64,000 nucleotides of DNA from Ceratodon purpureus. Lineage: Eukaryota; Streptophyta; Bryopsida; Pseudoditrichales; Ditrichaceae. Positions 10,160-56,699 of this stretch are shown one piece after another (the first letter of the stretch is position 1; each line of letters opens with the position of its first letter). The stretch spans positions 6,646,469 to 6,710,468 of the forward strand of contig CM026431.1 in assembly GCA_014871385.1 (NCBI GenBank), written 5' to 3'. Below the pieces are notes generated by a model, which was not told where the DNA came from, ran no database searches, and saw only the letters and a program-made list of their open reading frames with translations. The translations under genes and the position numbers were made by a program.

Positions 10160-13100
10160 ATGATGAATATAGTGGCGTTAGCCATGCTGTTGTCCTCCCT
10201 GGGGTCGATGATGGTGTTGTCGCCGGAGCCCATGCTGGTGAGGAGTTCGGCGGATGGGGAGAGTGCAATGGATGCAGTGAAGGAGGCAGCGCAGGGGACG
10301 TTTCTGAAGGCGGAGGAGACGGTGGCCGCGGCGAAGGATACCGTGGTGAGGGGCGTGGAGGGCGTGACGAAGCCCGTGGAGACGTCGTTGGGGTGGTTTA
10401 AGAAGAAGCCGAAGCCGGAGGATCACCTGGCGGTTGCTAGAGAGAAAGCGGCTGAGGCCAAGGAGGCGTTTCAGGATGCGAGTGGGCAGCTGAAAGACGC
10501 CACGGTGGAGAAGTTCGGTTCGGTTGCTGAGAGTGCCAAGGGGAAGGCCGCGGATGCATTTCGTGAAACTGGTACGGGGAGCCTCTCATTGCATTGAGAA
10601 GTCCCTTGTGTGTGCTATCTTTTGTCTTTTCAATCCTCGCGTTGAGTAGGTTTGAAGAGAGGGGTTTCGAGGGGTTAAGCGTAACTTCTGGGTTTAAGGT
10701 GCATATTGCTATTTTTTAATGGTTGTTGTTTTTGGGGAAGTGGTCCACATTGAGGCGAACAGTCGTTGTAGTAGTAATCTAGTTTGCATTTCATGTGAAG
10801 TGATGGTACCAAGAGCCTCAGTTTGTGTTTCATGGAATGCCATGAGAAAGCTTGGTTATGTTCTTGGGAATGTTTTGTGACATTTTGTTGTGGACTTTGA
10901 GAATGTCGTTACGGGGTCTAAGACCGATGCTATTCTCTTGGTTAGGTTTTTGTACATTTGCTAAGGTTAATGGAGTTTGCTAATTATTTTCCTCGTGTGA
11001 AAGAAGTCAGCAGCTTCATTTTGTTTTTTAGGGTGGGGTAGTGAGGCTTTTCTGTGTTGTCATTCATTGCTTTTATGCTTCGTTAGTATTTTTTATCCAT
11101 GGAGGACTCTTTGAGCGAGAGGTTTGAATGGTGTGAGTGATGAATTATGTGCAGGGAAGTATGTGGGTGATAAAGCATCAGGAGCAGCGGGAGCTGCCAA
11201 GGATGCGGCCGGGAAAGCGGAGGAAGTTGCAGTGGATAGCGCTCATACTGTTTACAACAAAGCCTATGATACTGCTGCCGCGACGGGAGACAAAGCAGGG
11301 TCCGCGATTCGGAGGGTGAGCTCCCCCTTTTTTTGGCTATATTGTTTCGAGGTTATTATGTATGCTACATGCATACAATGATTAGTGGAAGGTGGTTTGA
11401 AATCCCAGTTTGAAGTAGAACGTATGGTTCTGAATTGTCAATATTACCATTCTTGGTTGTTGTGCACCTGAGATAACTTAGGGGCCGTTTTAGTGCGGAA
11501 TCCTTGTAGCATTTATTATTATGTGACTCAAGCTGCATAGGTGCAACATAACTATGTTCCGTTTTGATGTTATAACCTCCTGTGCACACCACAAGATCTT
11601 TATCTGAAATTTATATCTTACGAGATCGATTTACTTGTAAATTATTGCAGACGGCTTCGCGGGCAAAAGAAGGTGCGGAGGACCTGTATGACTCTGCATC
11701 TGAGACGTTTGGTTCAGCTAAGGAGAAAACATATGAAAAAGCTGGGGAAGCGAAGGACAAGGTCTATGAAGGAACAGAGAAAGCTCGTGACGCAGTCGTT
11801 GAGAATGTCCACTTGGGAGTGGACAAGACCAAGGGGACGGCCATTGATGCTGCTGAGAAGGTGAAGGAGACCGGGGAGTACGCTGTTCATGAGACGAAAG
11901 AGACTGGCCAAGGAATATTTGGGAAGGTGAAAGACGCAGCTTGCAGAACTGCAGAGTGCCTGCGAGCGCGGGCGCACGAGGCTGGATCCTTTCTACCTCA
12001 CGTAGGCCAAGGACTTGGCTATGTGTACAACGACGGGAAGGCTGCTGCTGGTGACACTACTGAATCTTTAAGGAAGACAGCTAGCAATGCGGCTGAAAAT
12101 GCTGGTGAAGCAGCGGAGAACGCTAAAGAATGGACGCGGGATACTGCCAGACAATCTTACGATAGTGCAAGAGATAGAGCTGGTGATTATTATCAGGAAG
12201 GAAGAGAGTGGGCAGAAGATACGTATGATTCTGGGAGAGATGCGGCCCGGGAGTATTATGATGAGGCTGGGCGACGTTACAGGAGTGCAAGAGACTACTA
12301 TGATGGGCCTAGTGACTACTACAGAGGCAGAGGTGGTAGGCAGCAGTATAGAGACCGTCCCAGAGATGCTCCTTCGAGGTATTACGATGCGGCGAAAGAA
12401 GAAGCGCAAGATTTCTACGATCATGAGATAAGGGACAGAGCGAGATATGCTTACAGGAGTGCCAGAGATACAGGAGGGGCTTACTATGACGATGCAAAAG
12501 ACAGAATGGGAAGAAACATTCCTGGAAAACATCAAGGGAGCTCCAGAGATTATTACGAAGGATCGAGGCGAAGGGCCCCTGAAGGATACCGTGGTGCACG
12601 GGATGCTGATGAAGAATATTACGAGAGAGCGAGGTTCAAACCCGATGATCTCGATGATCTTGGGGCAGTGGTGGAGTCTTTGGGCTGGCGTCGCTTTGGA
12701 AAGGTGCCGAAAGATCATAAGGGTGTGGAGTCCTCGAAAGAGGTAGTGATTGGAGACGTGAAATATGTTTGGCAAGGAAAAGGCGAGCCTCGTAGTGATG
12801 AGACTGCGTTTCACCACATGAAAAACTCTGTGAAGGGTGCCGCACACACGGTGGGTGAAAAACTGGGCCTTGTGAAGGATCGCGTAAAAGAAGGTGCGGA
12901 GAATGTGCGCGACAGCAGCGTACGTGCCAGGGATCAGGCTTATGATCCTCTGGCCAAACATCCCCACTACTGGGAACATGATGATGACCATAACGTTGAT
13001 GAGGGCGACGAGTCGATTATCACCAAGGGGGCACGGAATGTAAAGGAAGGGGTGAGGAATGCAGGCCAGGCGTATGAGGCACAGCGCTCCAAAGCGGGAG

Positions 13101-13878
13101 AGTACGCAGACGAAGCACGACGGGAGCTTTCAAGTTTTGCTGGATACGGGCAACCTGGCAGAGCTTCGAGAGGGGGTCATCTGCGCTCGTGGAAGGACGT
13201 ATTCGTTAGGAAACCCGTGGGAATGCTTCTAGCCTTGACTCGCGCCCTCCACCTCTTCACGTTTTCAACGGTGTATGGTTCTGCTATATGGGTGACATTT
13301 GTGTCGGGCTTGATATTGTCCAAGCATGTTCCTCGACAACAATTCGGATACGTCCAGAGCCGCATGTTCCCTGTGTACTTGCGGATGTTGGCTACGGGAG
13401 AGGGTCTGCTCCTTCTTTTACATTCACTCATGCATCCGTGGTTTTCTTCTGAGAGCATCGAACGAATGCAACTGCTTAACTTCGCTGTGATGATCGCTTC
13501 CACCATACTCAACGCATATGTTGTGGAACCCCAGGCCACCAAGGTATGGAAATTTTATTAAATTCTTTGCATTCTTTCCTTTTGAGAAAGCTCTCTAGTG
13601 TCAATAGTGACAGGAAATGAGTAGGGTTTAACATGAGACGGTGATGTATGCAGGTTATGTTTGAGCGGTTGAAAGTGGAAAAGGAAGAAGGGAGGGGTTT
13701 AGAAAATGCAGCAAATCCAGTGGATGCAACGAAGGTGATGGAGGACCAGAAGAAAAAGCTAGTGATCATTAACCAGCAGTTCAAAACGTTGCACAGCTAC
13801 TCCTCTGCGCTCAATTTGATTAGTTTAGGAGGGTTAACGTGTCATCTGTGGCATTTGGCTAACCGTCTTGTGATATAA
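10160..13878 (+). CDS. LEA-like protein fused to a DUF4149/TMEM205-like membrane domain
   Basis: Four exons (10160-10571, 11155-11315, 11651-13543, 13654-13878) join in frame to 896 residues. Residues 1-25 are hydrophobic and look like a signal peptide or anchor. Residues about 35-350 are Ala/Lys/Glu-rich 11-mer-like LEA repeats (for example KAAEAKEAFQDASGQLKDA). Residues about 350-520 are unusually rich in Tyr, Asp and Arg, with repeated DYY/EYY and YRSARD motifs. LEA-like sequence then resumes to about 690. The last ~190 residues match the plant DUF4149/TMEM205-like domain, with about four hydrophobic segments (LLALTRALHLFTFSTVYGSA is typical). Flowering plants have the same LEA plus TMEM205-like pairing, so the fusion is known; a role in membrane protection during drying is inference. 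The start is the first of two adjacent ATGs. Confidence 0.88.
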
Positions 13879-16420: not shown

Positions 16421-17594
16421 GTAAAACCGGGTCCTATAGATCAACCTTGCTACGTCATGGGTACTTGATGAAATTTATTAAGTTTTGATGAAAAATAAAA
16501 TTTAGATGAAATATTGTATATGGATGAAAATGGAATTTGAATGAAAACTTAGCTCTAGATGATAATTGTCATTTGGATGAAAAATCAACAACGTTTTTAG
16601 ATGGAAATGGTTAGTTAGATGGAAATTTTCTAATGGATGAAAACCGTCACAAATGTGTATGGATGAAAAAAATATTGGGCCCATCATTTTTCAAATGCCC
16701 ACCCTTTGAAAATTTGTCTTGCCACTTTCTGCCCTATTGAATGACGGGCAATTTGCGTAGAAAATGCGAGATTTCCATTGGTTATTGACTGCCGAATCTA
16801 GAGCAGATTCTTCTAAAATTCTTAACTTTTGCATTGTAACTCCAAATGCTTTGAAATTTGCGCCATTTGAAAGCTACCGTTGAGAGCTATATAAAGTAAA
16901 AAAATTAGAAAATAATAATGTTCAGAAACCTTCAAGTAGCCTGCTCAGAAGTGCTGCGACCCAAATATGGTCTCAAGGGCCTTCATGGGTTAACTTCAAT
17001 TTTAGATTGGTGCTTAGAAATATATCAAAAGTTCTCACCATGTTTCTCGTTGAAACGTTTCTCCAACCTTCTAATTGATGTTGAATTTCTAGACAACAAA
17101 TCCAGTATCTCTTCCACGGTAAATTTTGCACTTGGATCATAAATCTTTCTACTTTCATCATATTTTATAATGACTCTCTGCATTTATGCAAATCTGAAGA
17201 AGGGTAAGGTCCTTTAGGGATTATTTGTTTACCTCCCAGACACCAGAAATTGGTCGCTGATGGTGCTATTTTGAGAATTACTAGGAAACAGTCCGGAGTC
17301 TGTCTTTGCATGTAAAAGAACGGATGTGGGCAAAGGTACCATGCATGCAATGCAAATTATAAATTCTGGATTTGAACAAGTTTAGTGTCCCCAAATACAA
17401 GAAAATACAATTGAACTGTGAAAAGAAATACACTCTTGTTTGCAACAGAAGGTTTTTGTTTGTACACGGAATGTGTAACATCCGCCGGTGTTCCCACAGA
17501 TATAACCAGAGTCATGCTCTAAGTTGGGAACTAACGCTCTTAGTAATGGGCACTGGAAGGATCTCTGGGTTGGAATTCCTGGTTACTTCACAAT

Positions 17595-18171
17595 TTAACC
17601 CCTAAACGTCCTCACCTATGTCGAGTTTAGGTAGTTTCGCAAAGATGCATTATAAAATGCAATTAATATGAATATTTAGAACTTGTTGTATAAATAAAAG
17701 TTATACATTACAAATTTTAGATTCTATCTATACGGTTAGATCTATGACAGTTATCACTAATCTTTTTTTATAAATTTTGAAACATAAAATAAAAAATTAT
17801 TTTGTAATTCATTTACGAATAAGATATTGACAATAAGTGGATGAAATTTGTCCTGATGGGTTAGAATGTAGTACTTTAGGTGTAGTGATTTTTGGAGATT
17901 TTTTGGAGGCTTTATTTGAATAGTTTTTTTTCTCAAGAACACTTTTAGACCAAAATCTTCAAGATTTTCGGTGAAACACTACAATACAAAATGAGGCATA
18001 GTTTTTTCAAAAATTATTTCCCCTTCAATTGAATCACACACATATGAAGCTAACTTCCCTTGGAAAATTCAGTAAAAAAATCACACCACAAAAAGTGCAT
18101 GACGGATGAGAAAATATGGATGATATTTTTACATCAGGCCAAAAAGGCCTGCCTGGGCAATTAGGGGTTAA
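17595..18171. mobile_element. Possible TTAA-ended element, short
   Basis: TTTAACCCCTAAACGTCC at 17594-17611 matches the terminal sequence of the 48120 element (TTTAACCCCTAAACGGCC), and TTAGGGGTTAA at 18161-18171 supplies an inverted partner. The 577 bp between shares little else that I can see with the other members, apart from an ACGGTTAGATCTATG stretch. It may be an internally deleted member, or a solo left end that happens to abut the next element, with which it would share the TTAA at 18168-18171. Confidence 0.4.
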
Positions 18172-27581: not shown

Positions 27582-28505
27582 TTATAAGCTAGAATCCTTG
27601 TGCACGAATTCTATGAGCTCGGGGGGCCAGCATTGTCTGATTTTGTCCCAATACATTCGATGCTGCGATTCACTCAACACGTCCCGCCACCGCCCTTTCA
27701 CGCCCTTGTGAATGAAATTCCCTTGCTTCATGACATTTAACGGCGGCTCAAACAGGTCTTCATGTTGCTTCATGTATTCGAAGGAGGTGTGGTGGAGGAT
27801 TTGACGAAAACTTACCGAAGCCTCATCCACGGGAATGCCAAGGAACTTCGCTAATTTCAGAATGACATGGGTAAGGTTGCGTTGCATCTCGTTGTAGTTG
27901 ACGAGGAGGATGTTGTCACATGAATTGGCGTATTTCCACCACGATTGGATGTGGTGGAAGTAGTCTGTCCAAAATGGCTGGTTGCCGTGGAGGAGCCAGT
28001 TCTCGTAAAAGAAGGTGAAGTCGTCCAACTTCGCATCCTTCAGGGTGGCGTTTCGGTACTCGGCAGTCTGGCTCATGCAGTGGTTGTAGAGGCTCATCAC
28101 GACGTCGCGCCCGTCGCGGAACACGCACACGTACTTGATCTTGGGGCTGAAGAGAAGCGCGTCAAGCTGGAGGTGGGACTTGATGAGCCGGCGGTGATGA
28201 GGCGGTGTCAGCTTGAACTTCGCAACGGTGTCCGTGGGTGCTATGAGCATGTTCTCAATCCACGACGTGGCATGGCGGAGGGTGTTATCTGGTGCGAAGA
28301 GAGTCTCTTCACCGTTGTTGATCATTTGAAGGATCAATTGTAGCATCCACGTTGTACCCGACTTCGGGAATGTGTTCACTACTATGTCCCCCTCTCGGAT
28401 GTAAGGAGACACTTCGTCCCACGCTCTGATATCAATACTGTTTGTGCCATCTTGAAGTTCCGTGATGGTTCGCTGCGGCCATGGCGCGTTCTCCTCACCT
28501 GTCAT
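27582..28505 (-). CDS. Cytosolic-type sulfotransferase (PAPS-dependent)
   Basis: The protein transfers sulfate from PAPS to a hydroxyl of a small acceptor. From the ATG at 28505 it has 307 residues, normal for the family, in one exon. Visible motifs are TFPKSGTTW near residue 45 (the 5'-phosphosulfate loop), IKSHL near 110 with the probable catalytic His, FRDGRDVVMSLY near 130 (3'-phosphate binding, with Arg and Ser kept), a YNEM segment near 203 in place of YEDM, and KGVKGRWRDVLS near 267 for the C-terminal RKGxxGDW-like element. A GTG two codons earlier is also open, but the ATG is preferred. The acceptor cannot be told from sequence. It lies alone on the minus strand, and the next gene upstream is unrelated. 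Confidence 0.92.
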   Translation of the reverse strand: MTGEENAPWPQRTITELQDGTNSIDIRAWDEVSPYIREGDIVVNTFPKSGTTWMLQLILQMINNGEETLFAPDNTLRHATSWIENMLIAPTDTVAKFKLTPPHHRRLIKSHLQLDALLFSPKIKYVCVFRDGRDVVMSLYNHCMSQTAEYRNATLKDAKLDDFTFFYENWLLHGNQPFWTDYFHHIQSWWKYANSCDNILLVNYNEMQRNLTHVILKLAKFLGIPVDEASVSFRQILHHTSFEYMKQHEDLFEPPLNVMKQGNFIHKGVKGRWRDVLSESQHRMYWDKIRQCWPPELIEFVHKDSSL

Positions 28506-31396
28506 TAGCACTGAATCTTATCTACACTGACAAACTATCCTTGTGTTCCTTTCGACCTAATTTGAATGAGCTTTACCCTCTGATACGCACTTCTGTGACT
28601 ACAAACACATATGGCATGTCACAAGCGATGCTGATAACTTGATATGGTATTGATGATGCGAACGGGCCTCTCTCTCGAATGAGACTCATAAGCTTAATTT
28701 CTGTTGTGACCGGAGAGGACAGAGTACAATACTAGAAATGAGCACTCAGCTCACAATTACAATAAACAGCTGCGCAAAAGAGCTGAGGAGAAACAAATTG
28801 TAGAAAAACTCCGGACTAAGTCACAAGTCTGAACCTTCTCTAATTGCTAGCATATACCCATCGACCGATTGTAGAAGAACAACAGATATTTCTGCAAACT
28901 ACATGATGATCAAGGTGTTAGTGCGCACTAACACATGCTATGTCTGTAGCAGCACAACAAACTTCGCATCTCAAGACTTCTATGCCGTTGTCATCGCCAC
29001 TGTCAAACATGAATGCTGTGAACGTATATTGATCCTGATAAAGAGCTATTTCAATGGACTAAACGGCTTCGCCAAGGGGGGCGTGTCGGCCTGCAGTCTG
29101 TCACACATTTCTCTCAGCATAAGCCTCCAAAACACAAACATCACCAATCACTTATTTCAATAGCAGCCCACACGCCACACGCATGTGATTACTTTCCCGT
29201 ACGTCACAACCATCTCCACACTTCCTCCATGCCTCAATTATTTGCACACTTCATGTTGCACCCATCTGCCTACATTCCTTTATGTGTCTTGAAAATTGTC
29301 CATGGTGTTCGCTTTAAACTCCTTGGAATCAGTAGCTTATTTAAAAATCGGACCCTCTGTAAGCTTCGATGTTCCAGGGTGCTGCGTTCTAGTCTGCAAA
29401 ATAGATTATACCAAACAGATCGACAAAGCCTTTTGTTGGCCACTGGCAGAGAAGAGGGAGGTTAAACGGAGGAGGGCAATTGCCAATACCGGGTGAATCA
29501 TTATGTTATATTATATCGAATGAACCAAAAAAAGGAGACCATAAATGTGCAACTCCTCTAACTGAGGAATTCCCATTGGAAACAGAAGAGCTCCAACTCG
29601 CTGGACAGTCTTGGAAGATTGCAGTATAGTGGAGTCGCAAATACTTAAACAAATAAACTATCAATCTTGCTGACATGACGATTGATTGGCTACTAAAGTT
29701 CTTGCTCTAGTTTTGAGATGAGACCCTTGCTACACTATTACCAAGCCTTCGGACCAGAGGGAACAATGCCAATGGCATGAGATTATTCACGTTTCTCATA
29801 TGCGCGGACACAATGGTATGAGCTGCAGGAGCGGCACATTGTACTCCTGCAAATTGATCTCTCCAGCCTTTCTATGACATCCACAGGACGCTTCAAAGAT
29901 GATCTAAGAGACAGCAATCAACAAGACTCACAATGTGAGATAAAAGCCCTCCTTCCAGCCATGAATGATGCCGATGAACGAAAATCCCCTTCTAACCCTA
30001 ACTTCCGACACGCTACTGTTCGACCAAGTCTGCACAGAAACTTGCAACTGGATAGCCCAAAATACCATCAAATGAAATCTAAAGTATCCTTCTCAACTTC
30101 ATTACTCTAGAAGAGTAGGCAAGTCGGTGTGCCTGCGATAATCGGCCTTGTCGATTACGAACTCGTGCTGAAAATCGGAGGAAACAATAACACCCTATAA
30201 AGTGGAGATTTGATAATACATTTGAATCATTAAGCACAGACAAATTGCACTTACATGGACAGGCAAGAACAGACACGAAGAGACTGCCAATGAAGCTCCG
30301 AGGAGTATGACACAACAATCTTTACATAGTCCACAAAACCGACGAAACACTCACCTCACAAACACGGGCATACCCAAAGGAAATGGAAAGGAAAACCTGT
30401 ATCCTTGAAGGCATCCCATTGAAGAAGAACTGCACTCCAAATGTGTGAAGTCCATTGCTTCCACGGCACGAAATCTGTGTCATGCGAAGAACATAACCCT
30501 GTGACGGAAAGACTGTAGAGACAACGATGGTACACCACTTTGCCCAGCATGTAGAGTACACTCAGGCCCACTTCGGACTAGACTTGTCTGGAGTTGTGGA
30601 CAAGTTGTACGTGACATGAAAAGTAGCGGATGATCGTGCAAAGGTAGTCTTTCAGGGCACAAACAACACCAACCTCCCATGCCCTCGTGGGTCTCCACCC
30701 ACATCATCAGCACACGAGGCTATCATATCCATACTAGAGCAACCCAATTGTTGGAGAGCAACATTTGTTTGATTCGTCGTTTGCATCAACATCATGTCAT
30801 CTTCTTCCCCGATCCAGCAAAGATGTATTCAGCCGCAATTCACACATCCAAACAAGATACTGCTCGTTACCTAGCTGGGTGTCTCCGGTGCATCAGCAGC
30901 GTTGTGATCTTCGGAGTATAAATGAGTTGTTTAAACAAGAATTCCTCTCTGATGATCCTGTGTCGTCAGTATTTCGTCATCGTTAGCACCACCGTCTGTG
31001 TCGCGACGCGCTAGTGGAGTCATGCGCCGTGCGTCGAATAATGCAACAACCGGTTTCACTTACAAACTCTTAAAATATATCCTGTTTCAATAACTCTGAG
31101 CACGCTGCACCTGCGTGAGTGATGAAGTTGTTGAGAGCTTTATAATTGAAGCTCAAACGATTGCATACTATTAAATCCTTGAACAATTTGAAGCTCGTTT
31201 TAGTCAGAGTTGTGCATGATCACGGATGATAGTGTGCAGTTGTTGAGAGCTCCGCAATTGAAGCTTTATGGTAGCCGGATTCTGAATGAGGATGAGCATG
31301 TGGTCAGTTCGACATCCTTGAAGTATGTGAGTCACTTCGTAATCACCATTGAATTTTTTCTCCTTCGTGCAGGGTTTTGTCTTGAAGCTCACTGCT
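28506..31396. other. Intergenic region between divergent genes, no gene recognised
   Basis: This stretch separates the minus-strand sulfotransferase from the plus-strand P450 and should contain both promoters. Its composition is more balanced than the AT-rich blocks, and it carries several 60-80 codon open frames on both strands (for example 29874-30110 +, 30322-30561 -, 30480-30713 -). None has a recognisable motif or convincing splice partners. A short segment GTTGTTGAGAGCT occurs twice, near 31129 and 31237. A T-rich tract ending in CAG at about 31371 may be the acceptor of a 5' UTR intron of the P450 gene. Confidence 0.45.
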
Positions 31397-35293: not shown

Positions 35294-36500
35294 TTTGCAC
35301 CTGGAAGGGTTTGCTATAGGTTTATGTCATTCAGGAGATTGGACAATACTTGATCCAGGTGCCTTCTTTGGCAGAGTACTCAACTGTAGGTAAACCTCAC
35401 TGGTTTCCGGGAGATCATGGATATGCTTGACTGATTCAATTGTCTTTTTAGTCTTCATATGAACCCAGTTTCTCGCATGAATCTCAGGACATAGATGATT
35501 AGTTCTTCGGATGTCCTGCTCAATGCTGTGGACATCTGCAGATTATGGTTGTTTTTTGTTGATGATTTTCACTTCATCTTTCTCCGGAAGGTTCCCGGGA
35601 GTGTGAGCAAGGTCGTCGATCGAGAGGGGCTTGACTGGAGGTTAGGCTTTTTGATTAGTGTTTTCTATCTGTAATTGTTGCTCTTTTTGAGTTTCTCAAT
35701 GGTCGACGTTGAATCGTTCTTGTTGGAGTTCCAGGGTTTTGGTCTTCATTCACCTTCTTATCGTTATTGTTATAATCTTGTTAACTGTTTAATATCCCCC
35801 ACTATCTCCCAGGGAAGTACAAATCATTGGAAGTTGCAAACATAAATGTTTAGGTGAATTTATGCTGTCAGAGTCTCGGTACAGAAGAGGTCGGAGGTCC
35901 TTGTCAAAGACGAACATTCTGACGTGCTGTGCGGTGCTCTTCATTGATGGCATGTGCGAGTAGATCGAGCTGGATCGCTATCTAGATAGCCCACATGCGC
36001 AACCACCGGCTGAGTTTTCAGCCGCAGATGGTGAAACCTAGGTTGCTCAAAATGACCTAATTAAAGGACAATCTTCGCTTCACTGCAGTTTAGGTGAGAC
36101 GAGTTTAGCAACAGCGAGTTCAGGAAACTATTCGGACCACATCGATGGAAATAATTCTCCAAGCTCTTGATCGGTTGTGCTAAGGGCTGTGTCGATGTGA
36201 AGCTATCTTTTGGTATGCATGAAATTGTTTCTTACCCTCTTCTGGGTGATGAGAAGTTAGAACGATTTGGATTGTTGTTTGCAATACCTGTGGTCTTGTG
36301 AGCCCATGATCTGAAGAGGCTTGAGGTGTTTCGATTAATGCAGGAGTTTGATCATTACATCTGTTACTCGTGAGGAGTATGGTGGGGCGTCGGAGTTAAA
36401 GAGACGGATCTTCTTGATGTGTTCTTGGGGGATAACGAGTATGTAGTTTGAAGGTGTTTGTGGGAGTTTCTGAAGTTCGTTTGCTGATCGTGTAGCAATC

Positions 36501-39395
36501 ATGGCTATGGCGAAAAGCTCCAGACCAGGGGAGAGGGGGAGCTCACCGACGTTGATCATCGCAGGGTCGGTGTTGGTGGGGTTTTTCTTGATCGCTGTTT
36601 GGGTGTTCACAGCGCCTGCTGCGATTCCGGAGCAGCAGATAGGAGAAGGAGGTGCAGTGACGACTAATGATCCCCCGGAATCCGTCGTGAATCATTCACC
36701 TGCGGAATCTGTTCCGGATACATCGGAAACAGTCGACGATATGCCCAATGATAGCCCCGCGGAAGCCGAGACGGAAGACTCCAAAGTGCCTGCGGTCCTC
36801 GAGACGCAGCCCACGGGCGACGGCGGGCTTCCGGACAGCATTTCTACGCAAGCGGAGCTGACGACGGAGAACAGGGAAGCGAACACGACAGACTTTGAAA
36901 CGCAGGCCGCGGAGTCGAAGGAGGAGAAAGAGAGTCTGACAACGGGAGTCGGAACTGTTGCAGAGAATGATACCACCACGAACCATGCCTCCCAGGAAGG
37001 AAGTGCGAGGGTGTGGAAGGTTTGCAAGTTTGAGGGCGCGCAGGACTTTATTCCATGTCTCGATAACGAAGCAGCCATCAAGAAGCTCAGGTCGCGGAAG
37101 CACTACGAGCACAGAGAGCGCCACTGCCCTTCCGAAGAAGAGCTTCCCAAGTGCTTGCTGCCATTGCCCACAAACTTTAAGGCTCCCATCACGTGGCCCA
37201 CCAGCAGAGATCAGGTTAACCCTAGTTGTTGGTTACTCGTTTGAGGCTCACCTTAATGACATATTCGATCATGTAGTTAAGGGTGGTTTTTCGTGGTTGA
37301 TTTTCCTGAGATTGTTTGTAATTGTCCAATTGCAGATATGGTTCAGCAATGTCCCGCACACGCAATTGGTGTCCTACAAAGCCGATCAAAACTGGGTGAA
37401 GGTGTCGGAGAATCAGCAGAAGCTCATCTTCCCCGGCGGTGGCACGCAATTCAAGCAAGGGGCTAGGCATTACATCGATTTTCTTGAGGAGGCGGTGCCT
37501 GACATAGCGTGGGGGAAGCACACGCGGGTCATTCTCGATGTGGGATGCGGCGTTGCCAGCTTTGGAGGTTATCTTTTCGATAAGGATGTGCTCGCGATGT
37601 CCATTGCTCCCAAGGACGAGCATGAAGCGCAGGTGCAAATGGCGTTGGAGCGGGGAATTCCTGCAGTTTCAGCTGTCATGGGCACTCAGAGACTTGTATT
37701 CCCAAGCAATGTCTTTGACGCTGTGCACTGTGCCCGTTGCCGCGTTCCATGGCATTTGGATGGTAATTCGGATCCAACCCGATTTTTTGTATGGATTGGA
37801 GTGCATTCCTTTCGAGATCAGCTAAAATCAGGGTGTCCATGATCTGGCTAACTTTATTTTTTATTTTTTATTGTGGCAGGAGGGAAGCTTCTCCTCGAGT
37901 TGAACCGCGTTTTAAGACCAGGAGGCTTCTTTCTATGGTCGGCGACTCCTGTGTATTGGAAGGATGAGGAGAGCATACAAATCTGGAGAGGTTTGCATCT
38001 ACATACCCTTTAGGCTTTTTAACTTGAACTTCCCATACCTTCAATTATCGGTTTTGAAGTCTCGAACTGCTCTTTTCTTGTTGACAGCTGTGGTTGATCC
38101 CATCTTTGCAGATACAAAAGCTATGGTAGAAACGATGTCGTGGAAGTTGGTCGCCAAGAAGAATGACCCAACCACGAAGATCGGCGTTGCTGTGTTCCAG
38201 AAACCTAAAGACAACGACTTGTACAATCTTCGCCAGCCTGATGCTACGCCTCCATTCTGTGAACCTGATGATAAGGCGGACGCCGCATGGTGAATATACA
38301 AACAGTCCCAAAGATTAACTTTTTGTCAACAGAAATGGCGATATTAGAGTTAATTGAAATTTCGGTTTGATTTTGTAGGTATGTTCCCATGAACTCGTGC
38401 ATACACAAGCTCCCAACTACAGACGGAGCACGGGCAACCAGCTGGCCGGCAGATTGGCCTCTCCGAGTGGAATCAACACCATCGTGGCTGAGCACCGCTG
38501 ACAAAGGAATCTATGGCAAGCCTGTCACAGAAGATTTCCGTTCCGACACAGAGCACTGGAAGCGGATCATCGAGAAGTCGTACTTACAAGGACTGGGCAT
38601 TCAGTGGGGCTCCATCCGCAATGTGATGGACATGAAGGCTGGCTATGGAGGGTAGGGAGCTTGACACTCATTTCACCTTTGTTACTTTGCTTGGCATGTA
38701 TGATCCGGGGATCCGATCATCAGTTGATGTTGTTGGCTTTGATTACCGGTTGAGAGTTCATATGTTTTGGTGATTGTGGGCGTGCAGGTTTGCGGCTGCT
38801 CTTGTGGCGCAGCCCGTGTGGGTGATGAACATCGTTCCTGTAACGGAGCCGGACACTCTGCCTATTATCTATGATCGGGGCTTCATTGGAATGTACCACG
38901 ATTGGTGTGAACCGCACAGCACGTATCCCCGCTCCTACGATCTTATGCACGCTGACCATTTGATCAGCACACTCACAAAGAAGTAAGCAACACTTAAAAC
39001 TCAACTGATCAATTAATGCTTTAAAATCATATTCTTATGTTGACACATCACTCCACTCTAATAATCGTTGCATGAACTATTCGGTTCAACGGACATTTAG
39101 CAAAACTGTTGCAAACTTCATGCTTCCTGGTTTTGAATTCCAATGGTGTAATTCTGGATTTTTCTTTGATGATTACAGGTGCAATATTGTGAATGTGGTG
39201 ATGGAGATGGACCGAATTCTACGACCCGATGGATGGGCCATCTTCCGTGACAAGGTGGAAGTGCTTAAGGAGCTAGAGGACATAGTGAAGTCGTTGCACT
39301 GGGACATCGTCCTGGCGTACACGCAGGGTGAGGAGGAGCTCCTTGTAGCACAGAAGCGTTTCTGGCGACCCAGTGAAGAGGCCTCTGGCAAATGA
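36501..39395 (+). CDS. Golgi PMT-family methyltransferase (PMT24/25/26-like; DUF248)
   Basis: Seven exons (36501-37214, 37336-37762, 37880-37990, 38112-38289, 38379-38651, 38788-38982, 39179-39395) join in frame to 704 residues. It is a type II membrane protein: a short basic N-tail, one anchor at about 17-38 ([20 protein letters not shown]), an acidic Ser/Thr/Glu-rich spacer to about 165, then the lumenal domain. Landmarks are [54 protein letters not shown], the SAM-binding motif [15 protein letters not shown] near 305, [36 protein letters not shown] and [12 protein letters not shown]. The long acidic spacer resembles PMT24-26 of Arabidopsis. The family is thought to methylate pectin in the Golgi, but that activity is not proven for each member. 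The gene appears intact. Confidence 0.93.
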
Positions 39396-40514
39396 TTTTT
39401 TTCAATTCTTTTCATTGTTTTGAACTCACTATTGCAATGTTCAACCTTTTGCCAAATTCCACTGTCCAGTGCCGCGCTAGAGCTCATTGTCAACTTGGAT
39501 GGAGGATAGAGGTTCAACTGAGAATATGTAGCATCAACAATCTAGCAACTTAGTACATTTTGAGTGGAACTTAGAAATCATTGAAGTTCCTTTCTTTTAT
39601 TCCATAATGAAGCTCACAACCATTAATTTTCGACATCCTGTACACTATCAAGATTGTTGTGTGCATGTTTTTGTCAAGAAATTTCTCAGATCATGTGTTT
39701 CCATCCGATTGTGTATACTGAAATTGTGTGTTTCAAACAAGATTCATTTCAGAATATTTCAAGAGTCTTGAGATTAGTTTCAGTTATACTGAGGGTCCTT
39801 ATTCACCTAAGAGTGGACCTTGAACAAAAAGCTCAGCGTTTGAAATCCAAGCGCGTGCCACCAAAACCATCGACAAAATCACCTGTAAACAAATCCGACA
39901 ATGTGCTCACTCAAGGAATCAATCTGCTCACTCGAAGAACTGATTTGCACTGTTCACCACTTTCGCCAGTTTGACAAAGTCCAAACTAGGTCACCGACTT
40001 TCCCGCGATGGCATCTCCGTAGCACTGTTCCGGAGGTCTGCAAGTACTCCATCGCTGGAAACCCGAGGCTCCACTTTCAGGCTTCCAAACCCCAGCACTC
40101 CGAGTCTGCCGGTCCTGTTTCTCTAGGGTTCGCTGACAGCACCACGCATCTGGAGTGTGCGCTTGCGAGGAGCTGTGCTGAATCATCGCCTGCGTTGCCG
40201 TTGACACTCTCAAGGTCAAGGCGTCTCCCGGCGACCGTTGTCGGGTAAGCTCGGCCCTTCTTGATCTTCCTGTCGTTGCGATCTGTTGAGCTTGCGAGTC
40301 GGGCTTGCGTTCATCTCTCTTCTCAGCCGCCCTCGAATATAGAGTGTTTTGCTTTGCATCTGGAGGTGCGCCCCGTCGTGACTTGGTCTCCATTTGCAGC
40401 AGTGTTCTGAGGTCCCTTAGTCTGAAATCCCTGCTCTCACCCTAGTCTCTCAACTTAGCTTGGCAGAGTGACTGGCAGGCAGTCCGATTGACTTCATCAG
40501 AAGAGCAAAGAGCG
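39396..40514. other. Intergenic / promoter region containing a repeat copy
   Basis: After the PMT stop, about 400 bases of AT-rich DNA lead into the family A repeat copy (39897-40330). The last ~180 bases before the kinase ATG are presumably promoter and 5' UTR. The open frames across this stretch are shared with the repeat or lack motifs. Confidence 0.5.
39897..40330 (-). repeat. Dispersed repeat, family A copy 2
   Basis: This is the reverse complement of 26560-26970 with scattered changes: TTTCGCCAGTTTGACAAAGT, GCGATGGCATCTCCGTAGCA and CAGCACTCCGAGTCTGCCGG all have partners there. At its left end the GTGCTCACTC/CTGCTCACTC segment is doubled relative to the other copy. It ends within about 190 bases of the kinase start, so it may supply part of that promoter. 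Confidence 0.75.
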
Positions 40515-41987
40515 ATGGCAGGCACAAGCGGATGCTCGCGCCAGTTCAAAAGAATGAAGCTGTCCGATACTTCCTGCGCGATGAGTGGGTCAGAGGAGTC
40601 GGGTAATTTCAAGGCACCACCGAGTGAAGCTCATCTTGCAAGTGCGTCGGTGTCGTTCCTATCTGCAGGGAGTGAGAGCATCATGGAGACAGCGGAGAGT
40701 GAGGGATGCAGTGCAGGCACCAAGAGTGTTGCGCGGGGAGCTGATCACACGACCACTTCTTCGTGTTTCGTATCTGCAGTGGAGGAGCAGATCGAGCGCT
40801 CCAAGGCTCACTGGAGCACTCTGGCGGATGGGCCGAGTGGTGCTGGCACGGTTGAAGAAGAAGATGGCGAGGGTGACTGCGAGGCCGAAGAGAGCAACGT
40901 CCGTGAATTCATGCAACTGCAGCGCCACCCCACCTGGGGTGGATTCTTCCAAACATTTGGGTATAAACTTGACAATGGAAGATACCCAAGTCAAGGTGAG
41001 TTGGTGGTGGGGGAGAAGTTTGCAGAGGGTGCGCAGGCGGAGCTCTTCCATGCCAAGGTCACATGGTGGGATCCAAAGGATAATGAGGAGGATGAGAGTA
41101 AAGGACTTGAACATGTGGTGAAGGTCTTCAAGAAGGGGACATTCTTGAGAGACTTGAAATCCCAGTTGCCCCATGGATTGTTGCAATTTCATGTAGAGGA
41201 CCAGGAAAATCATAAGTCCCCTACACCCAAGGTGACCCCAAGGTTCTTTTGTGAAGTACATCGAGGTATATTGTTGAAGAATGGACAGTTTGCATTCTTG
41301 ATGCAAAAGGATGATTTTGATCTTCGGAGTTTGATTGAACGCCAGATGAAATTGAGGATTGATGGAGATTGTGGGCCATTTTTAAAGGAGGATTATGAAG
41401 TCATGATGTATGATATTGCATTGGGGGTGGAGTGGCTCCACAGTCGAGACATCATTCATAGGGATCTAAAAGCATCAAATGTACTTGTGAAAGTGTTCAA
41501 AAGTGGGTGGCCAAAGTGGTTTTGTGCGGTAGCGGATTACGAATGTTCCATTGGGGTTGTAGGAACGGGATTTTTTAGGGCACCGGAGATATTGCAAGCG
41601 TGCAAAGAAGGGATGGCTAGTCAAAAATTGGAGGTGTTTTCAAGAGCAGCGGATGTTTATGCTTATGGGATGACTTGCTATGAGGTATTGACAGGGAAGC
41701 TTCCTTTTGATGATCATCCATTGAGTGCCAACAAGCCTTTGTTGATGGATCTTGTGAACAATCAAGGTCTTCGCCCAGAGGTACCTAAATTTGTTGAAGG
41801 TTGGGCACGAGAGCTGCTGAAATGGTGTTGGCAATGTGATCCAAGTGCAAGACCTACGATTGGAGAAATATTGAATTTGTTGAGTAGAAATTCAGCATCT
41901 ATAAGAAGGCGGGAGAAAGATCAAAAGGAGAGATATGGTGATAACTTTAGATACATTCCAATGCCCTCATGTAGGATTGGAAGTTGA
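40515..41987 (+). CDS. Protein kinase-like protein with an atypical DFG motif
   Basis: From the ATG at 40515 it has 490 residues without introns. The first ~130 are Ser/Glu-rich and probably disordered. A conserved-looking lead (FMQLQRHPTWGGFFQTFGYK) precedes the kinase domain (about 160-460). The glycine loop is weak (EKFAEGAQAELFHA). The probable ATP-binding lysine is K203 in VVKVFKK. The catalytic loop HRDLKASN at 315-322 is complete. The magnesium motif is DYE (341-343) instead of DFG, although its Asp is kept, and the APE motif follows as RAPEI. Later features are DVYAYGMTCYEVLTGKLPF and CWQCDPSARPTIGEIL. It is probably a Ser/Thr kinase of a plant-specific group; activity is uncertain. 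A TTG nine codons upstream is also open. Confidence 0.85.
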   Translation: MAGTSGCSRQFKRMKLSDTSCAMSGSEESGNFKAPPSEAHLASASVSFLSAGSESIMETAESEGCSAGTKSVARGADHTTTSSCFVSAVEEQIERSKAHWSTLADGPSGAGTVEEEDGEGDCEAEESNVREFMQLQRHPTWGGFFQTFGYKLDNGRYPSQGELVVGEKFAEGAQAELFHAKVTWWDPKDNEEDESKGLEHVVKVFKKGTFLRDLKSQLPHGLLQFHVEDQENHKSPTPKVTPRFFCEVHRGILLKNGQFAFLMQKDDFDLRSLIERQMKLRIDGDCGPFLKEDYEVMMYDIALGVEWLHSRDIIHRDLKASNVLVKVFKSGWPKWFCAVADYECSIGVVGTGFFRAPEILQACKEGMASQKLEVFSRAADVYAYGMTCYEVLTGKLPFDDHPLSANKPLLMDLVNNQGLRPEVPKFVEGWARELLKWCWQCDPSARPTIGEILNLLSRNSASIRRREKDQKERYGDNFRYIPMPSCRIGS

Positions 41988-51851: not shown

Positions 51852-53855
51852 ATGGAATCAGTGGAGGCTATTTGTAGCATTGCACATGTTGCCAGTGAAG
51901 ACGAGATTCGGGGCCGCCTTCAGCGATTGCCGTCCAAAGTGAGGAGAAGACTGAGTAGAGAAGTAGGGGTCATCTCTTGTCACCGTGCCATTGTGAAGAA
52001 CCCGGATGTGGGTGTTGTTAGGGCATTCTTGGAGCAAAGAGAGATTCAAGAGAATGTGAACCAACATGTGCCTGACAAGTCCTCAGGCACTACTACGCTA
52101 CTGCATGCTGCGGTTTTGCGGCAAGATGGAGGAGAATCTGTGAAGAAGTTGTTGGAGCTTCCTGAGGTCGACGTGAACGTGATTGCATACAAAGACGGTT
52201 TTACTCCGCTTCACTTGGCATGTTTGTTGTCTCGTTTTGAAATTGTCGAATTGCTGTTGAATGACCGGCGAGTAGATTTGAGTGCAAAGACTCTAGATAA
52301 TCGGACTGCACTCCATTGCACCTGCAGCGACTTAATGCGTGAAAATAGCTCAGAGTTTGACAAAGCAAGCTGGGGTTCGACCTGCAAGAAGCTGGAAGTT
52401 GTGCGCATCCTCATGAAAGCTACTGCAACTAGGACTGGCAATCTTCTGCGGTTTCTGGATGAGAGGGACAGTTGTGGGAAGGCAGCCCTTCACTATGCCT
52501 CTGAGAATAACCACAGGGCTATTGTAGAAGAGATTTTCAGCTCTCTGATGCTGATTACCGATGCAGGAATTGAGTCATCAAATGATGCCATGCTGAAGAC
52601 ATCAGGGATTCACGAGCACTTGGTCTATTCGGTTTCTCTTGTTCAAGACATCAGAGGTTTTTTGCCTGTCCACTTGGCAGCTCAGAAAGGGCATAGGGAG
52701 GTAGTCAAATGCTTACTAAGACACGCCCCACACACCTTGCACAGCCAGGATAGACAAGGCCTCACACCATTTCATCACTCCATCATAGGCGGCCATCTCC
52801 AAATCGTGGAAGATTGGATGTCCCAGCACATTCCAAAATCCAACTCTCCTTCGCTTGAGCAGAAACTAGTCACAGCCTTCGTAGAGCTTTTCAGAATAAC
52901 CACGCACCATCGAGTTGCCCTTTTCTTACTCCAGGAGCTCGAGCACCAGCTTCAAGCCTCATCTCCCACCAGAAGAAACTTCACCTCTCTTCTACACTGG
53001 ACACTCTTCTCTCCCACTTGGGCCAGAACCCTGATACCCCACATCTTAAAATGGCAACCAACCTTAGCAAACAAGACCCTCGACCCGCAGAGGAAGCAAA
53101 CCCCGCTCCACATCTCAACCATATCCAACCAACTCGACACAGTGACAGCACTATGCACCGAAGAAGGATGGTCACTGCAAGCAAACAAGAAGGACAAATT
53201 CAACAAGACAGCCCTCGACTACGCACACGACCTCGGCCACAAGGACATCTGCGAGCACCTCACCCAACGTCCAGACGTAAAAAACTTCCTCTCCAACCTC
53301 CAGGAAGAGCAGATGGCCTTCGTCACAGCCGCCAACGCCATCCTCGTGGTGGCCGTCCTGATAGCAGGCTCCTCCTTCGCAGACTGTACCAAGCCTCTCT
53401 ACACAAACAATCCACCATCACCAGATGTGTTCCTATCACTCTACGTAGTCGCTTCAACCACATTTCTAACATCCATCAGTGCCACCATCCTGGGAGCATG
53501 TGCAGCCTTGCCATTCTCATTCGGCCTCTACATCGGCAAGCGCATCAAGAGATGTGATTACATTGCATACAAGGTCCGTCGCATCCGTGTGCTGGTGGCA
53601 TCTGCAAGCTACTTCCTGGTGATGTCGTTGGCAACCATGGTGTTCAGTTTTTTGTGCAGTTCCTTCGGAGGAGGTGTTTCGCAGAACACAAGGCTTGTCT
53701 CGTGTTTGGTGTTCACAGCGTCGTTTACTAGTGTCTCTGTGTTGGTGTTTGTAGTCTATATCAGTCGAGCTCTTTACTGTAAATTGAAGCATCTGAGGTG
53801 GCGGAAGTCTCGGAAGTTGTCGAAGATGGAGTCACTTCTTTGTACAAAGTTGTGA
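51852..53855 (+). CDS. Ankyrin-repeat protein with C-terminal PGG-type membrane domain
   Basis: Without introns, from the ATG at 51852, it has 667 residues. After an N-terminal region (MESVEAICSIAHVASEDEI) come about seven ankyrin repeats at roughly 80-470. The clearest are DGFTPLHLACLLSRFEIVEL, GKAALHYASENNHRAIVEE, GFLPVHLAAQKGHREVVKCL and KTALDYAHDLGHKDICEHL. The last ~190 residues hold four hydrophobic segments starting at NAILVVAVLIAGSSFA, in the position of the PGG domain, although the Pro-Gly-Gly itself is not present. Plant relatives act at membranes in stress or salt responses; the role here is unknown. Earlier in-frame codons back to 51750 are open, but the decayed paralogue at 14711 shares this start. 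Codon third positions change sharply between about 52700 and 53560. Confidence 0.88.
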   Translation: MESVEAICSIAHVASEDEIRGRLQRLPSKVRRRLSREVGVISCHRAIVKNPDVGVVRAFLEQREIQENVNQHVPDKSSGTTTLLHAAVLRQDGGESVKKLLELPEVDVNVIAYKDGFTPLHLACLLSRFEIVELLLNDRRVDLSAKTLDNRTALHCTCSDLMRENSSEFDKASWGSTCKKLEVVRILMKATATRTGNLLRFLDERDSCGKAALHYASENNHRAIVEEIFSSLMLITDAGIESSNDAMLKTSGIHEHLVYSVSLVQDIRGFLPVHLAAQKGHREVVKCLLRHAPHTLHSQDRQGLTPFHHSIIGGHLQIVEDWMSQHIPKSNSPSLEQKLVTAFVELFRITTHHRVALFLLQELEHQLQASSPTRRNFTSLLHWTLFSPTWARTLIPHILKWQPTLANKTLDPQRKQTPLHISTISNQLDTVTALCTEEGWSLQANKKDKFNKTALDYAHDLGHKDICEHLTQRPDVKNFLSNLQEEQMAFVTAANAILVVAVLIAGSSFADCTKPLYTNNPPSPDVFLSLYVVASTTFLTSISATILGACAALPFSFGLYIGKRIKRCDYIAYKVRRIRVLVASASYFLVMSLATMVFSFLCSSFGGGVSQNTRLVSCLVFTASFTSVSVLVFVVYISRALYCKLKHLRWRKSRKLSKMESLLCTKL

Positions 53856-54010: not shown

Positions 54011-54572
54011 GATTGAATTTGTTCATGTTTACAGTAGTAGCTGTGGACTGTGATGATGAACACTGTTGTTTTGAGAGGGGAAGATTATTTTGTGGGACAC
54101 TATCAATGTGATCGAAGTTTGTGTGACATTGAGTTCTTAGTACTTATTTTTTATTGATTACAAACTTTTTTATGACTAGAAATAGCATAAAAATCAATGG
54201 TTGTGCTTAAATACACATGTCATATTAATGTAGATTGTGGAAAAAGATACATTGTATACAAAGGTGAAATTGAAATGTTTAAAATATTTGAACCATATAT
54301 TGAAAAAAAGATTGTTTGGTAAGAATGGTTATGTGATTTAAGTAGCAATTTGATTAAGAGAAGAAAATTGTTGATATTGACTCTATTATATGGAACCAAT
54401 TTAGACTTATTATAGACAAATGGATGCATAGCCAAATGAATAGATTGGCTTTATGTTTTGCTTATAAAAATTATATATATATTTTTTTGGAATAAATAGG
54501 TCTTTTAAATTTCAATTCTACAAAAATAATTAATAAATTCTATATTTTTAAAAATCTAATATAATTGAGGAA
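54011..54572. other. AT-rich spacer between convergent genes
   Basis: The 3' flanks of the ankyrin gene (+) and the H3-like gene (-) face each other here. Nothing else is seen. Confidence 0.6.
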
Positions 54573-55136
54573 TTAAAATTTAGTTCCTCTAATCTTTCTT
54601 GCTTGTAGTTGGATGTCCTTTCGCTTTATTTCTAAACTCTTCTTGAACATGTCATAGAAATTTGTTTCTTTGAAAAATCCTAGAAAATAAAAATATGCCG
54701 CCAAATAGGATATTGATGCATCCTTCCTTTCAAAATCCAAAGAGCCGTTATTACTATTTTTTATCTCATGAACTAGAATTTTGTGAATAAAAAATTCAGT
54801 TCTTTCTCCATACTTTGAAATCAATGTTTTCTTTTTTTTCTGATATTTTTGAATGTTTGAATATTGTTTCCTGATCATCAACTTTGTACTCTTTTCATAT
54901 TTTCGAATCTCATGAAGAATGCTTGGTTTTGGACGGAAACGATGGCGATCTGGTACTTTATCTTTGATTTTGGAAACCTCTACAAGTTGATGAACTTGTT
55001 CTTCTACTTGTTCGTTTTCTATCTTGACTGTTCCTGTTGTGGTTGAATAGAATTTCCTCACACTTCTTGAAGGAATTTGTCTCCTTGGAGGTGCTTCTCC
55101 TGTAGTCCTACGAGCAGTTTGTTTACGTTTAACCAT
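54573..55136 (-). CDS. Highly divergent histone H3 variant with two insertions
   Basis: From the ATG at 55136, one intact exon gives 187 residues (normal H3: about 136). The tail MVKRKQTARRTTGEAPPRRQ aligns without gaps to H3: K4 and R26-K27 are kept, but R2 is K, K9 is R, K14 is lost, and K18 and K23 are R. After an extra ~24 residues (about 40-64) comes HRFRPKPSILHEIRKYEKST, matching the H3 alphaN region. A second insertion of about 24 residues (about 91-115, Lys-rich) precedes alpha1. The rest (LVHEI, LDFERKDASISYL, LGFFKETNF, RKDIQLQARKIRG) follows H3 closely, and loop 1 has canonical H3 length rather than the longer CENH3 form. Codons are AT-rich, unlike neighbouring genes. It may be a fast-evolving variant, a gene with special expression, or sequence of mobile or viral origin. 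An open extension upstream (15 codons) is probably untranslated; it contains a TATATATA-like stretch. Confidence 0.82.
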   Translation of the reverse strand: MVKRKQTARRTTGEAPPRRQIPSRSVRKFYSTTTGTVKIENEQVEEQVHQLVEVSKIKDKVPDRHRFRPKPSILHEIRKYEKSTKLMIRKQYSNIQKYQKKKKTLISKYGERTEFFIHKILVHEIKNSNNGSLDFERKDASISYLAAYFYFLGFFKETNFYDMFKKSLEIKRKDIQLQARKIRGTKF

Positions 55137-56699
55137 TATGATACTTACTATATATAAATACCAATGATATTTGAAGATCAAAAAATTACTTCATATGATG
55201 ATAACGACGGAAACAATAAATAGTTGTAAGTTTATTTTGAGGATGTATCAAAAATAACTTTCAGTTTGTCCACATCAATGTGAATTAAAAATGTCAAGAC
55301 TATGATCAACAAAAGAAATAAATAAAGTGTATTGCAACAATGTTGAATACAACTTCTGTCGATAATCAATATCATCCAATTCATAATATTCACCTGTCGA
55401 ATCTTATATATCGGTAAAAATAAAGTAAAATAAAATTTCTAACCAAAGATTTAAAGTAAAATAAAATATTAATTAAATATATAAAGTAAAAGTAATAGCT
55501 TAGATAAAGCTTCAAAGTAAGATAATAAATACAGAGTAAACTTGTTTCCACACAAAGAACTCTTCTTCCCATGAAAATTTCCAACTCTAATCTAATTACA
55601 TTAAAAAAAAAACCCAAAATTAAAAAAAAAACCCCACTCTCCCAACTTTACCCCACCTTCAACCGCGGGCCAACGCAATACGAAAAAAACCAAAACAAAA
55701 CGTGGTTGATACCCGGAGGAAACCCGGGGCAGGAAAACTAAAACAAAACGTGGTTGATACCCGGAAGAAACCCGGGGCAGGAAGACCTGGATGCACCAGA
55801 CAGTCCATGAGCTGGTGGGGGCGATCCACCGGCACGGAACGAGGGCGACGTAAGCCCCGAATAGCAACGACGATAAGCGAATCAGTTATTATAAACCCAA
55901 AGCCATCCTCAGATCCACTGCCACACGAGAAACGAACCCCCGAATCATCATCATCATGCCCACCAAGTCAAACCTCCCCCCCTCCACCATCCCCCCTCGC
56001 CGGCTGCTCATCCCACACCCGGTCCTAACCCAAACGATTCACTCCTTCGCACAAACAGGAACATGGTTTAGATGCAGAAGAGTGCTCTTCTAGTCATTAA
56101 GTTAAGTACTTGTTCAGATGCTGCATTTTGGGATGCCGCCCTTGGACCGGGCATAAGCCTCGGATGTAGCACGAGAAGGAGAGACGCTTCCATACATGCA
56201 TTAGTGGGTATGAGGTTTGGGAGGTGACAGGGGAGGTGATTGCATACACGGAGGGATGCTCGCACGCCATCCCCGAGTGCTAGACTTGCTGCCTGCTGGT
56301 GTCGCCACGAGGATTAAAGGTGGGTTCCCAGATTTCGATTGCCTTGGGAAGGGGGGAGAGAGAGAGAGAGATTCAAGCTGAGGTACAGTAAGGTTTTGGC
56401 TCCAGATGGTGTTTAGGCTGGAATTTATCTCTTGTTTATGATTTGGAGATTCAGCTACGTTTGAGGGGAATGTGTTGAGAGTTGGGTTATTGGTTTAGGT
56501 TACTGAGTGGGGAGTGGTTTTGAGAAATTCTTGCTCTGTGCTGGTGTTTGGAGGAGAGTTTGTCTGATTGAGGATTTGGGTTGGGATTTGAGGTGGATTT
56601 GGGGTGGGTTTTGGGGGGATTTTTTATTTGGGGGTGTGGTGTGGTGGGAGGATTGTTCTTTGTGGTGGGTTGTTGATTGGGAGTTGAGCTGGGTTACAG
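55137..56699. other. Intergenic region; promoter side of both H3-like gene and SEC10
   Basis: About 55137-55620 is AT-rich and upstream of the H3-like gene. A 48 bp unit containing ACGTGGTTGATACCCGGA is directly repeated at about 55693-55788. From about 55660 on the DNA is GC-richer and presumably holds the SEC10 promoter and 5' UTR, including a (GA)n tract at 56355-56370. Open frames here lack motifs. Confidence 0.5.

Follow-up and report, generated by a model that had tools for sequence, protein, structure and literature searches.

A divergent, apparently selected histone H3-like gene with two large inserts in the moss Ceratodon purpureus

In plants, HTR genes that fall outside H3.1, H3.3 and CenH3 form the H3-like class, a heterogeneous class defined by departures from H3.1 and H3.3 at positions 31, 41, 87 and 90, and for which substitutions of modified lysines and a possible absence of introns are recorded (PMC4357034). 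The nearest recorded plant extremes found are the generative-cell H3s of lily (gH3, gcH3 and leH3), which are strongly divergent and stand outside the main classes, and of which gcH3 and leH3 were suggested to be possibly non-nucleosomal (PMC3380720). Natural H3 variants that differ chiefly in the motifs for writing and reading of marks are described from the ciliate Stylonychia, where they are developmentally expressed (PMC2939574). Here we describe an H3-like gene of the moss Ceratodon purpureus, located on the minus strand at 54573..55136 of a 64,000-nucleotide stretch of contig CM026431.1 (the window; the contig is called C11 below), which shares its lysine substitutions and lack of introns with the plant H3-like class, its strong divergence and its position outside the main classes with the lily proteins, and its altered mark motifs with the Stylonychia set. 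It differs from the plant H3-like class in retaining K4 and K27, in having 25 + 25 + 1 extra residues and in carrying a triplicated segment 51–64; "insertion" is not a word of PMC4357034, and a word search of the text of PMC2939574 likewise returned no insertion. No plant H3 with such inserts was found in the literature as represented by titles and the beginnings of abstracts, and the triplicated segment is an addition of the present analysis.

The frame runs from an ATG at 55136 to a stop ending at 54573 and encodes 187 amino acids plus the stop, with no intron needed. Its product reaches a core-histone score with the Pfam model Histone (PF00125; 31.6 bits, above the cut-off of 26.4; E = 2.2e-7), and a Phmmer search against PDB sequences gave a best E of 1.1e-14 for an H3.1/H3.2 chain, the match falling into three collinear stretches (1–36, 62–90 and 121–185) that are interrupted at both inserts. 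The best PDB-sequence matches carry the names H3.1 and H3.3, and the top ones are presumably plant H3s. The original prediction, made from the sequence without database searches, had named an intact but extreme H3 variant with two insertions of about 24 residues. The variant is borne out and so are two large inserts, but these account for 25 residues each, and the excess over canonical H3 (187 − 136 = 51) includes a single further residue, Q178 in the last helix, which had been missed. No ATG frame exceeded 133 codons (mean of the longest, 55) in 500 sequences of 1.6 kb that were simulated from the local DNA with a first-order Markov model. The GC content of the coding DNA is 0.33, versus 0.59 in the one canonical H3 gene of this genome that was measured.

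One further copy of the gene lies at C8:7991213-7991773; it is open throughout, shows 89% protein identity and has no coding indels. The two copies belong to a duplicated block (54503..55466, minus strand) with 92.3% DNA identity to C8:7990882-7991846 over 965 columns, beyond which the stretches compared share no neighbourhood. Between the copies, 6.4% of the coding part differs, against 9.4% of the 5′ part (330 bp) and 8.6% of the 3′ part (70 bp); the 5′ part has a single indel column and the coding part has none. The 36 coding differences in 564 nt are distributed 5/10/21 over the three codon positions. The NG86 estimates are dN 0.049 and dS 0.142, and our own pairwise codon model, applied to this single pair of copies, gives an omega of 0.277 (2dL 10.37, p = 0.0013). 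This dN/dS is not neutral and argues against decay, as had been anticipated in the claim that the frame is maintained. By region, omega is 0.09 in the tail, residues 1–38 (p = 0.048), 0.115 in the core, residues 116–187 (p = 0.0011), and 1.2 in residues 39–72 (p = 0.82), where 11 of the 20 amino-acid changes fall within 34 of the 187 codons (p = 8e-5 for a region chosen after seeing the data). On these values insert 1 appears to evolve freely, and the tail and core appear constrained. The dS of 0.142 is lower than the 0.47–1.38 found across ten canonical H3 pairs and one H3.3 pair.

A whole-genome-duplication origin of the pair was rejected, since the stretches compared on the two contigs (89,901 positions of C8, with one base read as N, and 104,000 of C11) have in common, besides the 965-bp block, only four matches of 181–580 columns, which are taken for repeats. 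A 580-bp segment of the window (17592-18171) is 87% identical to a stretch about 630 bp downstream of the C8 copy and is probably a repeat. The block starts inside an array of an AT-rich 30-bp unit (window 55420-55491), and a 48-bp unit is present in 2.1 copies at window 55686-55787.

The variant is far from canonical H3: of the 129 aligned sites counted, which exclude positions 33–38 because insert 1 makes the alignment unsure there, 54 are identical (42%; 52 in the C8 copy). In the C11 copy, identity is 13/32 in the tail (1–32), 17/26 at 39–64 and 24/71 at 65–135, so that 39–64 is the best-kept part (p = 0.008 versus the remainder). The H3-type tail (residues 1–38; 55023..55136, minus strand) aligns without a gap up to position 32, further than the position 27 first given, and the initial reading of its lysines holds position by position: K4 and K27 are kept, K9, K18 and K23 are replaced by arginine, and K14 is lost, as K14A. 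The serines are changed as well (S10T, S28F), as are the surroundings of K4 (A1V, R2K, T3R) and of K27 (A25V, S28F), which turns ARKS into VRKF. The ARKS/T context is given as the methylation motif of K9 and K27 (PMC2939574). The suggestion of an H3 that is unmarkable at K9 and markable at K4 and K27 is thus extended in its first half, with the lysines of positions 9, 14, 18 and 23 all gone, and weakened in its second, because the VRKF context makes marking at K27 doubtful and the surroundings of K4 are altered.

The α1–α3 core (residues 116–187, including Q178; 54576..54791, minus strand) carries substitutions of its own, so that more is altered in the fold than the interruptions at its joints that had been supposed. 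Among the sites that we take to be nucleosomal DNA contacts (R40, R42, R49, R63, K64, R69, R72, R83, K115, R116 and T118), six are changed (R49H, R69I, R72H, R83D/N, R116S/I and T118E); R40, R63, K64 and K115 are retained, and R42 is retained in the C11 copy only. In the H3–H3 bundle, C110Y, H113F and A114K are changed, and D123 and L126 are unchanged, followed by the extra Q.

The two inserts, proposed to sit exactly at flexible joints where the fold could tolerate them, are not equivalent loops. Insert 1 (about residues 39–62; 54951..55022, minus strand) is an unconstrained linker rich in E, Q and V, within which the 25 extra residues can be placed in more than one way, and it has no match as a fragment of H3 (P 0.94 and 0.95). 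Insert 2 follows H3 K64 and, judged by residue numbers and the helix limits that we assume, begins slightly inside α1 rather than exactly at the αN–α1 joint. It comprises, in both genes, two further tandem copies of H3 51–64 (IRKYQKSTELLIRK). The first, native copy (residues 77–90, IRKYEKSTKLMIRK; 54867..54908, minus strand, as are the others) agrees with the canonical segment at 11/14 positions, the second (residues 95–108, IQKYQKKKKTLISK; 54813..54854) at 8/14, and the third (residues 106–119, ISKYGERTEFFIHK; 54780..54821), which shares 3 residues with the second and extends into α1, at 7/14; the corresponding values in the C8 copy are 10/14, 8/14 and 8/14. When residues 91–119 were shuffled, one of 20,000 trials equalled the best single score for C11 and none of 20,000 did so for C8; the two-copy score was never equalled in 20,000 trials with either gene. 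With any 14-residue window of canonical H3 allowed, the best window was again 51–64; the single score was then equalled in 0 and 2 of 3,000 shuffles, and the two-copy scores of 70 and 73 in 0 of 3,000 (maxima 48 and 50). Shuffling the whole protein minus the native copy equalled the single score in 0 and 2 of 5,000 trials and the two-copy score in 0 of 5,000. Two results count against a repeat: comparison of the variant with itself, leaving canonical H3 aside, missed significance in C11 (p = 0.06) and yielded an offset only tied for top in C8, and a search for a DNA-level self-repeat within the variant gave nothing convincing. We conclude from the protein comparisons that the 51–64 segment underwent an ancient tandem triplication, its copies being spaced 18 and 11 residues apart. 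The I and Y of its I-x-K-Y core are retained in 3/3 repeats of both copies; R52 is present in the first repeat only, its position being Q and S in the others.

At the signature sites, both copies have T31, F41, K87 and S90. This combination departs from H3.1/H3.1A (A31, F41/Y41, S/Q87, A90/L90, intronless) at positions 31, 87 and 90, though the gene is intronless, and it agrees with H3.3 (T31 Y41 H87 L90, with introns) in T31 alone, given F41, K87, S90 and no intron. On these departures at 31, 41, 87 and 90, the variant fits the loose plant H3-like class. Because the canonical H3 and the H3.3 of this genome have Y41 and F41 is reported first in ferns (PMC5809374), inheritance of F41 from a vascular-plant H3.1 seems unlikely.

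The assignment supported by these comparisons is an intact H3 relative with evidence of selection, and not a CENH3. We lean, by a modest degree, towards a functional, fast-diverged, intronless moss H3-like gene in two copies, derived from ordinary H3; both intact frames, the apparent selection on the protein, the loss of K9, K14, K18 and K23, the unconstrained linker and the triplicated 51–64 segment are what the sequences display. Several points weigh against this reading. The evidence for selection comes from one copy pair within one genome, the regional split was chosen after the differences were seen, and neither αN (omega 0.13, p = 0.12) nor insert 2 (0.14, p = 0.20) is significant alone. 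The single-sequence AlphaFold2 model, with helices at 42–56, 71–109, 111–127, 135–151 and 160–183, is weak (mean pLDDT 60.2, pTM 0.28), the stretch 71–110 being among its better-scored parts (73–78). A search for a divergent H4 partner saw none, with 9 matches, all identical canonical H4, among 13 candidates scored. Finally, a role in ordinary nucleosomes is opposed by R49H, R72H, R83D/N, R116S/I, C110Y, H113F, A114K and the extra Q; with several DNA-contact arginines and H3–H3 interface residues changed, an ordinary nucleosome would be less likely than a weak or unusual one, or than an H3 that chaperones hold.

Other origins fare less well. A decaying H3 copy that has yet to meet a stop would account for the very low identity to H3 and the AT-rich coding DNA, but it is improbable given two intact copies with an omega of 0.28 (p = 0.0013): a pseudogene should combine neutral dN/dS with stops or frameshifts, both frames are open at 42% identity to canonical H3, and in neutral simulations of canonical H3 down to 46% identity the frame was still open in 0.3% of 300 runs, while the stretches of H3 that have really decayed in this genome are truncated or carry stops or a frameshift. 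A foreign H3, viral or from another eukaryote, would suit an isolated, intronless, AT-rich gene that moved as a small block and is long diverged from the genome's own H3; we rate it slightly lower still, as the protein resembles H3.1 at K53 and in its general match, and H3.1 and H3.3 are the names of its best PDB matches. Three scans of viral contigs gave 44, 29 and 2 pattern matches with no confirmed relative of the variant, and a canonical H3 query equally gave none, so that they are no evidence either way. Very little probability falls to insert 1 being an intron, which would leave a protein with only one large insert, for which one may cite the lack of constraint in residues 39–72 and an in-frame GT-AG pair of 51 nt (codons 37–54) common to both copies. 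Introns of 51 nt are very short for plants, removal would leave 8 extra residues, no listed shared in-frame pair excises insert 1 exactly, and neither copy has a stop or an indel; intron readings of the inserts were not convincing. Least credible of all is a CENH3 paralogue. CENH3s are likewise divergent and are the usual fast-evolving H3s, but they have a lengthened loop 1, and the loop here aligns ungapped at canonical length, in agreement with the earlier view that this is not an ordinary CENH3. The genome also has two separate genes, at C7:16724000-16728500 and C2:6640500-6645000, which we take to be CENH3-like from their CENH3 features and whose tails are strongly unlike each other. At the 16 of 72 compared sites (a comparison without the stretch 72–92) that separate H3 from both, the variant has the CENH3 residue at 0, the H3 residue at 8 and neither at 8.

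A more serious competitor, possible though clearly less probable than the reading we favour, is a non-nucleosomal H3 that uses three tandem I-x-K-Y epitopes to hold or titrate NASP, an H3–H4 chaperone, and does not become a stable part of chromatin. A study with a published structure reports αN as the main H3 binding site of NASP, contacted in an extended conformation at I51, R52 and Y54 (PMC9122598), and Arabidopsis NASP is described as binding H3-H4 and H3 (PMC9666630). The retention of I and Y in all three repeats of both copies, the erosion of DNA-contact and bundle residues and the preservation of 39–64 as the best-kept part suit this idea. Against it stand R52 in the first repeat only, with Q and S elsewhere, K-rich repeats that might just bind DNA, and a short SHNi-TPR model that gave 0 matches in the genome (16 candidates scored), though an intron-split gene could escape such a model. 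Because NASP contacts I51 and Y54 and every repeat keeps both, one may speculate further, at somewhat greater risk, that selection multiplied the chaperone epitope (I51-x-K53-Y54, three times) as the DNA-gripping and H3–H3 surface was largely dismantled, producing a multivalent NASP handle. If true, such a handle would buffer or block histone supply rather than pack DNA in the ordinary way.

As for the remaining histone genes, at least five intronless genes encode one identical canonical H3, and at least three H3.3 genes were matched exon by exon; such counts are lower bounds, because the genome-wide PF00125 search, which listed 30 places, missed both variant copies. A sixth H3 (C6:24702275-24702679, on a contig of 110.5 Mb) is 99% canonical, with Thr at the start-Met position and P43A. 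Three decayed H3 stretches lie at C6:9522968-9523213, C2 about 19421052-19421400 and C6:87697886-87697957; one has three stops, one a frameshift and a stop, and one is a fragment. At C9:6692370-6692561, a histone-fold match occurs within a 269-residue frame with repeated acidic segments. Elsewhere in the window, Pfam matches mark ordinary genes for a DUF4149 protein with a LEA-like part (11576-13561), a sulfotransferase (27582-28517), a P450 (31343-33004), a methyltransferase (its start, 36474-37244), a protein kinase (40446-41987) and an ankyrin-repeat protein (51876-53855).

If the variant is indeed a functional H3-like protein, it may still pair with ordinary H4, and H3 chaperones may carry it via the well-kept, multiplied αN segment. 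Because several DNA-gripping arginines and H3–H3 interface residues are replaced, at most a loosely wrapped, non-canonical particle would be formed, and chromatin in which the variant was deposited would be unable to bear K9 marks. By analogy with other divergent plant H3s, the likeliest setting would be a specialised, perhaps reproductive, cell type. The promoter motifs tell nothing here: a TATA-like hexamer at −20 in the C11 copy is missing from the C8 copy, and neither copy has, within 330 bp upstream, the sequence RRCSGTT, which we take to be the DUO1-type site. Few known proteins are as conserved as H3, and the variant shows how far H3 can bend, in being apparently retained by selection despite dropping four modifiable lysines and triplicating its αN–α1 junction. 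It would represent a natural K9-less H3 in a moss, and it opens a test of whether αN can be uncoupled from DNA wrapping and serve as a chaperone handle.
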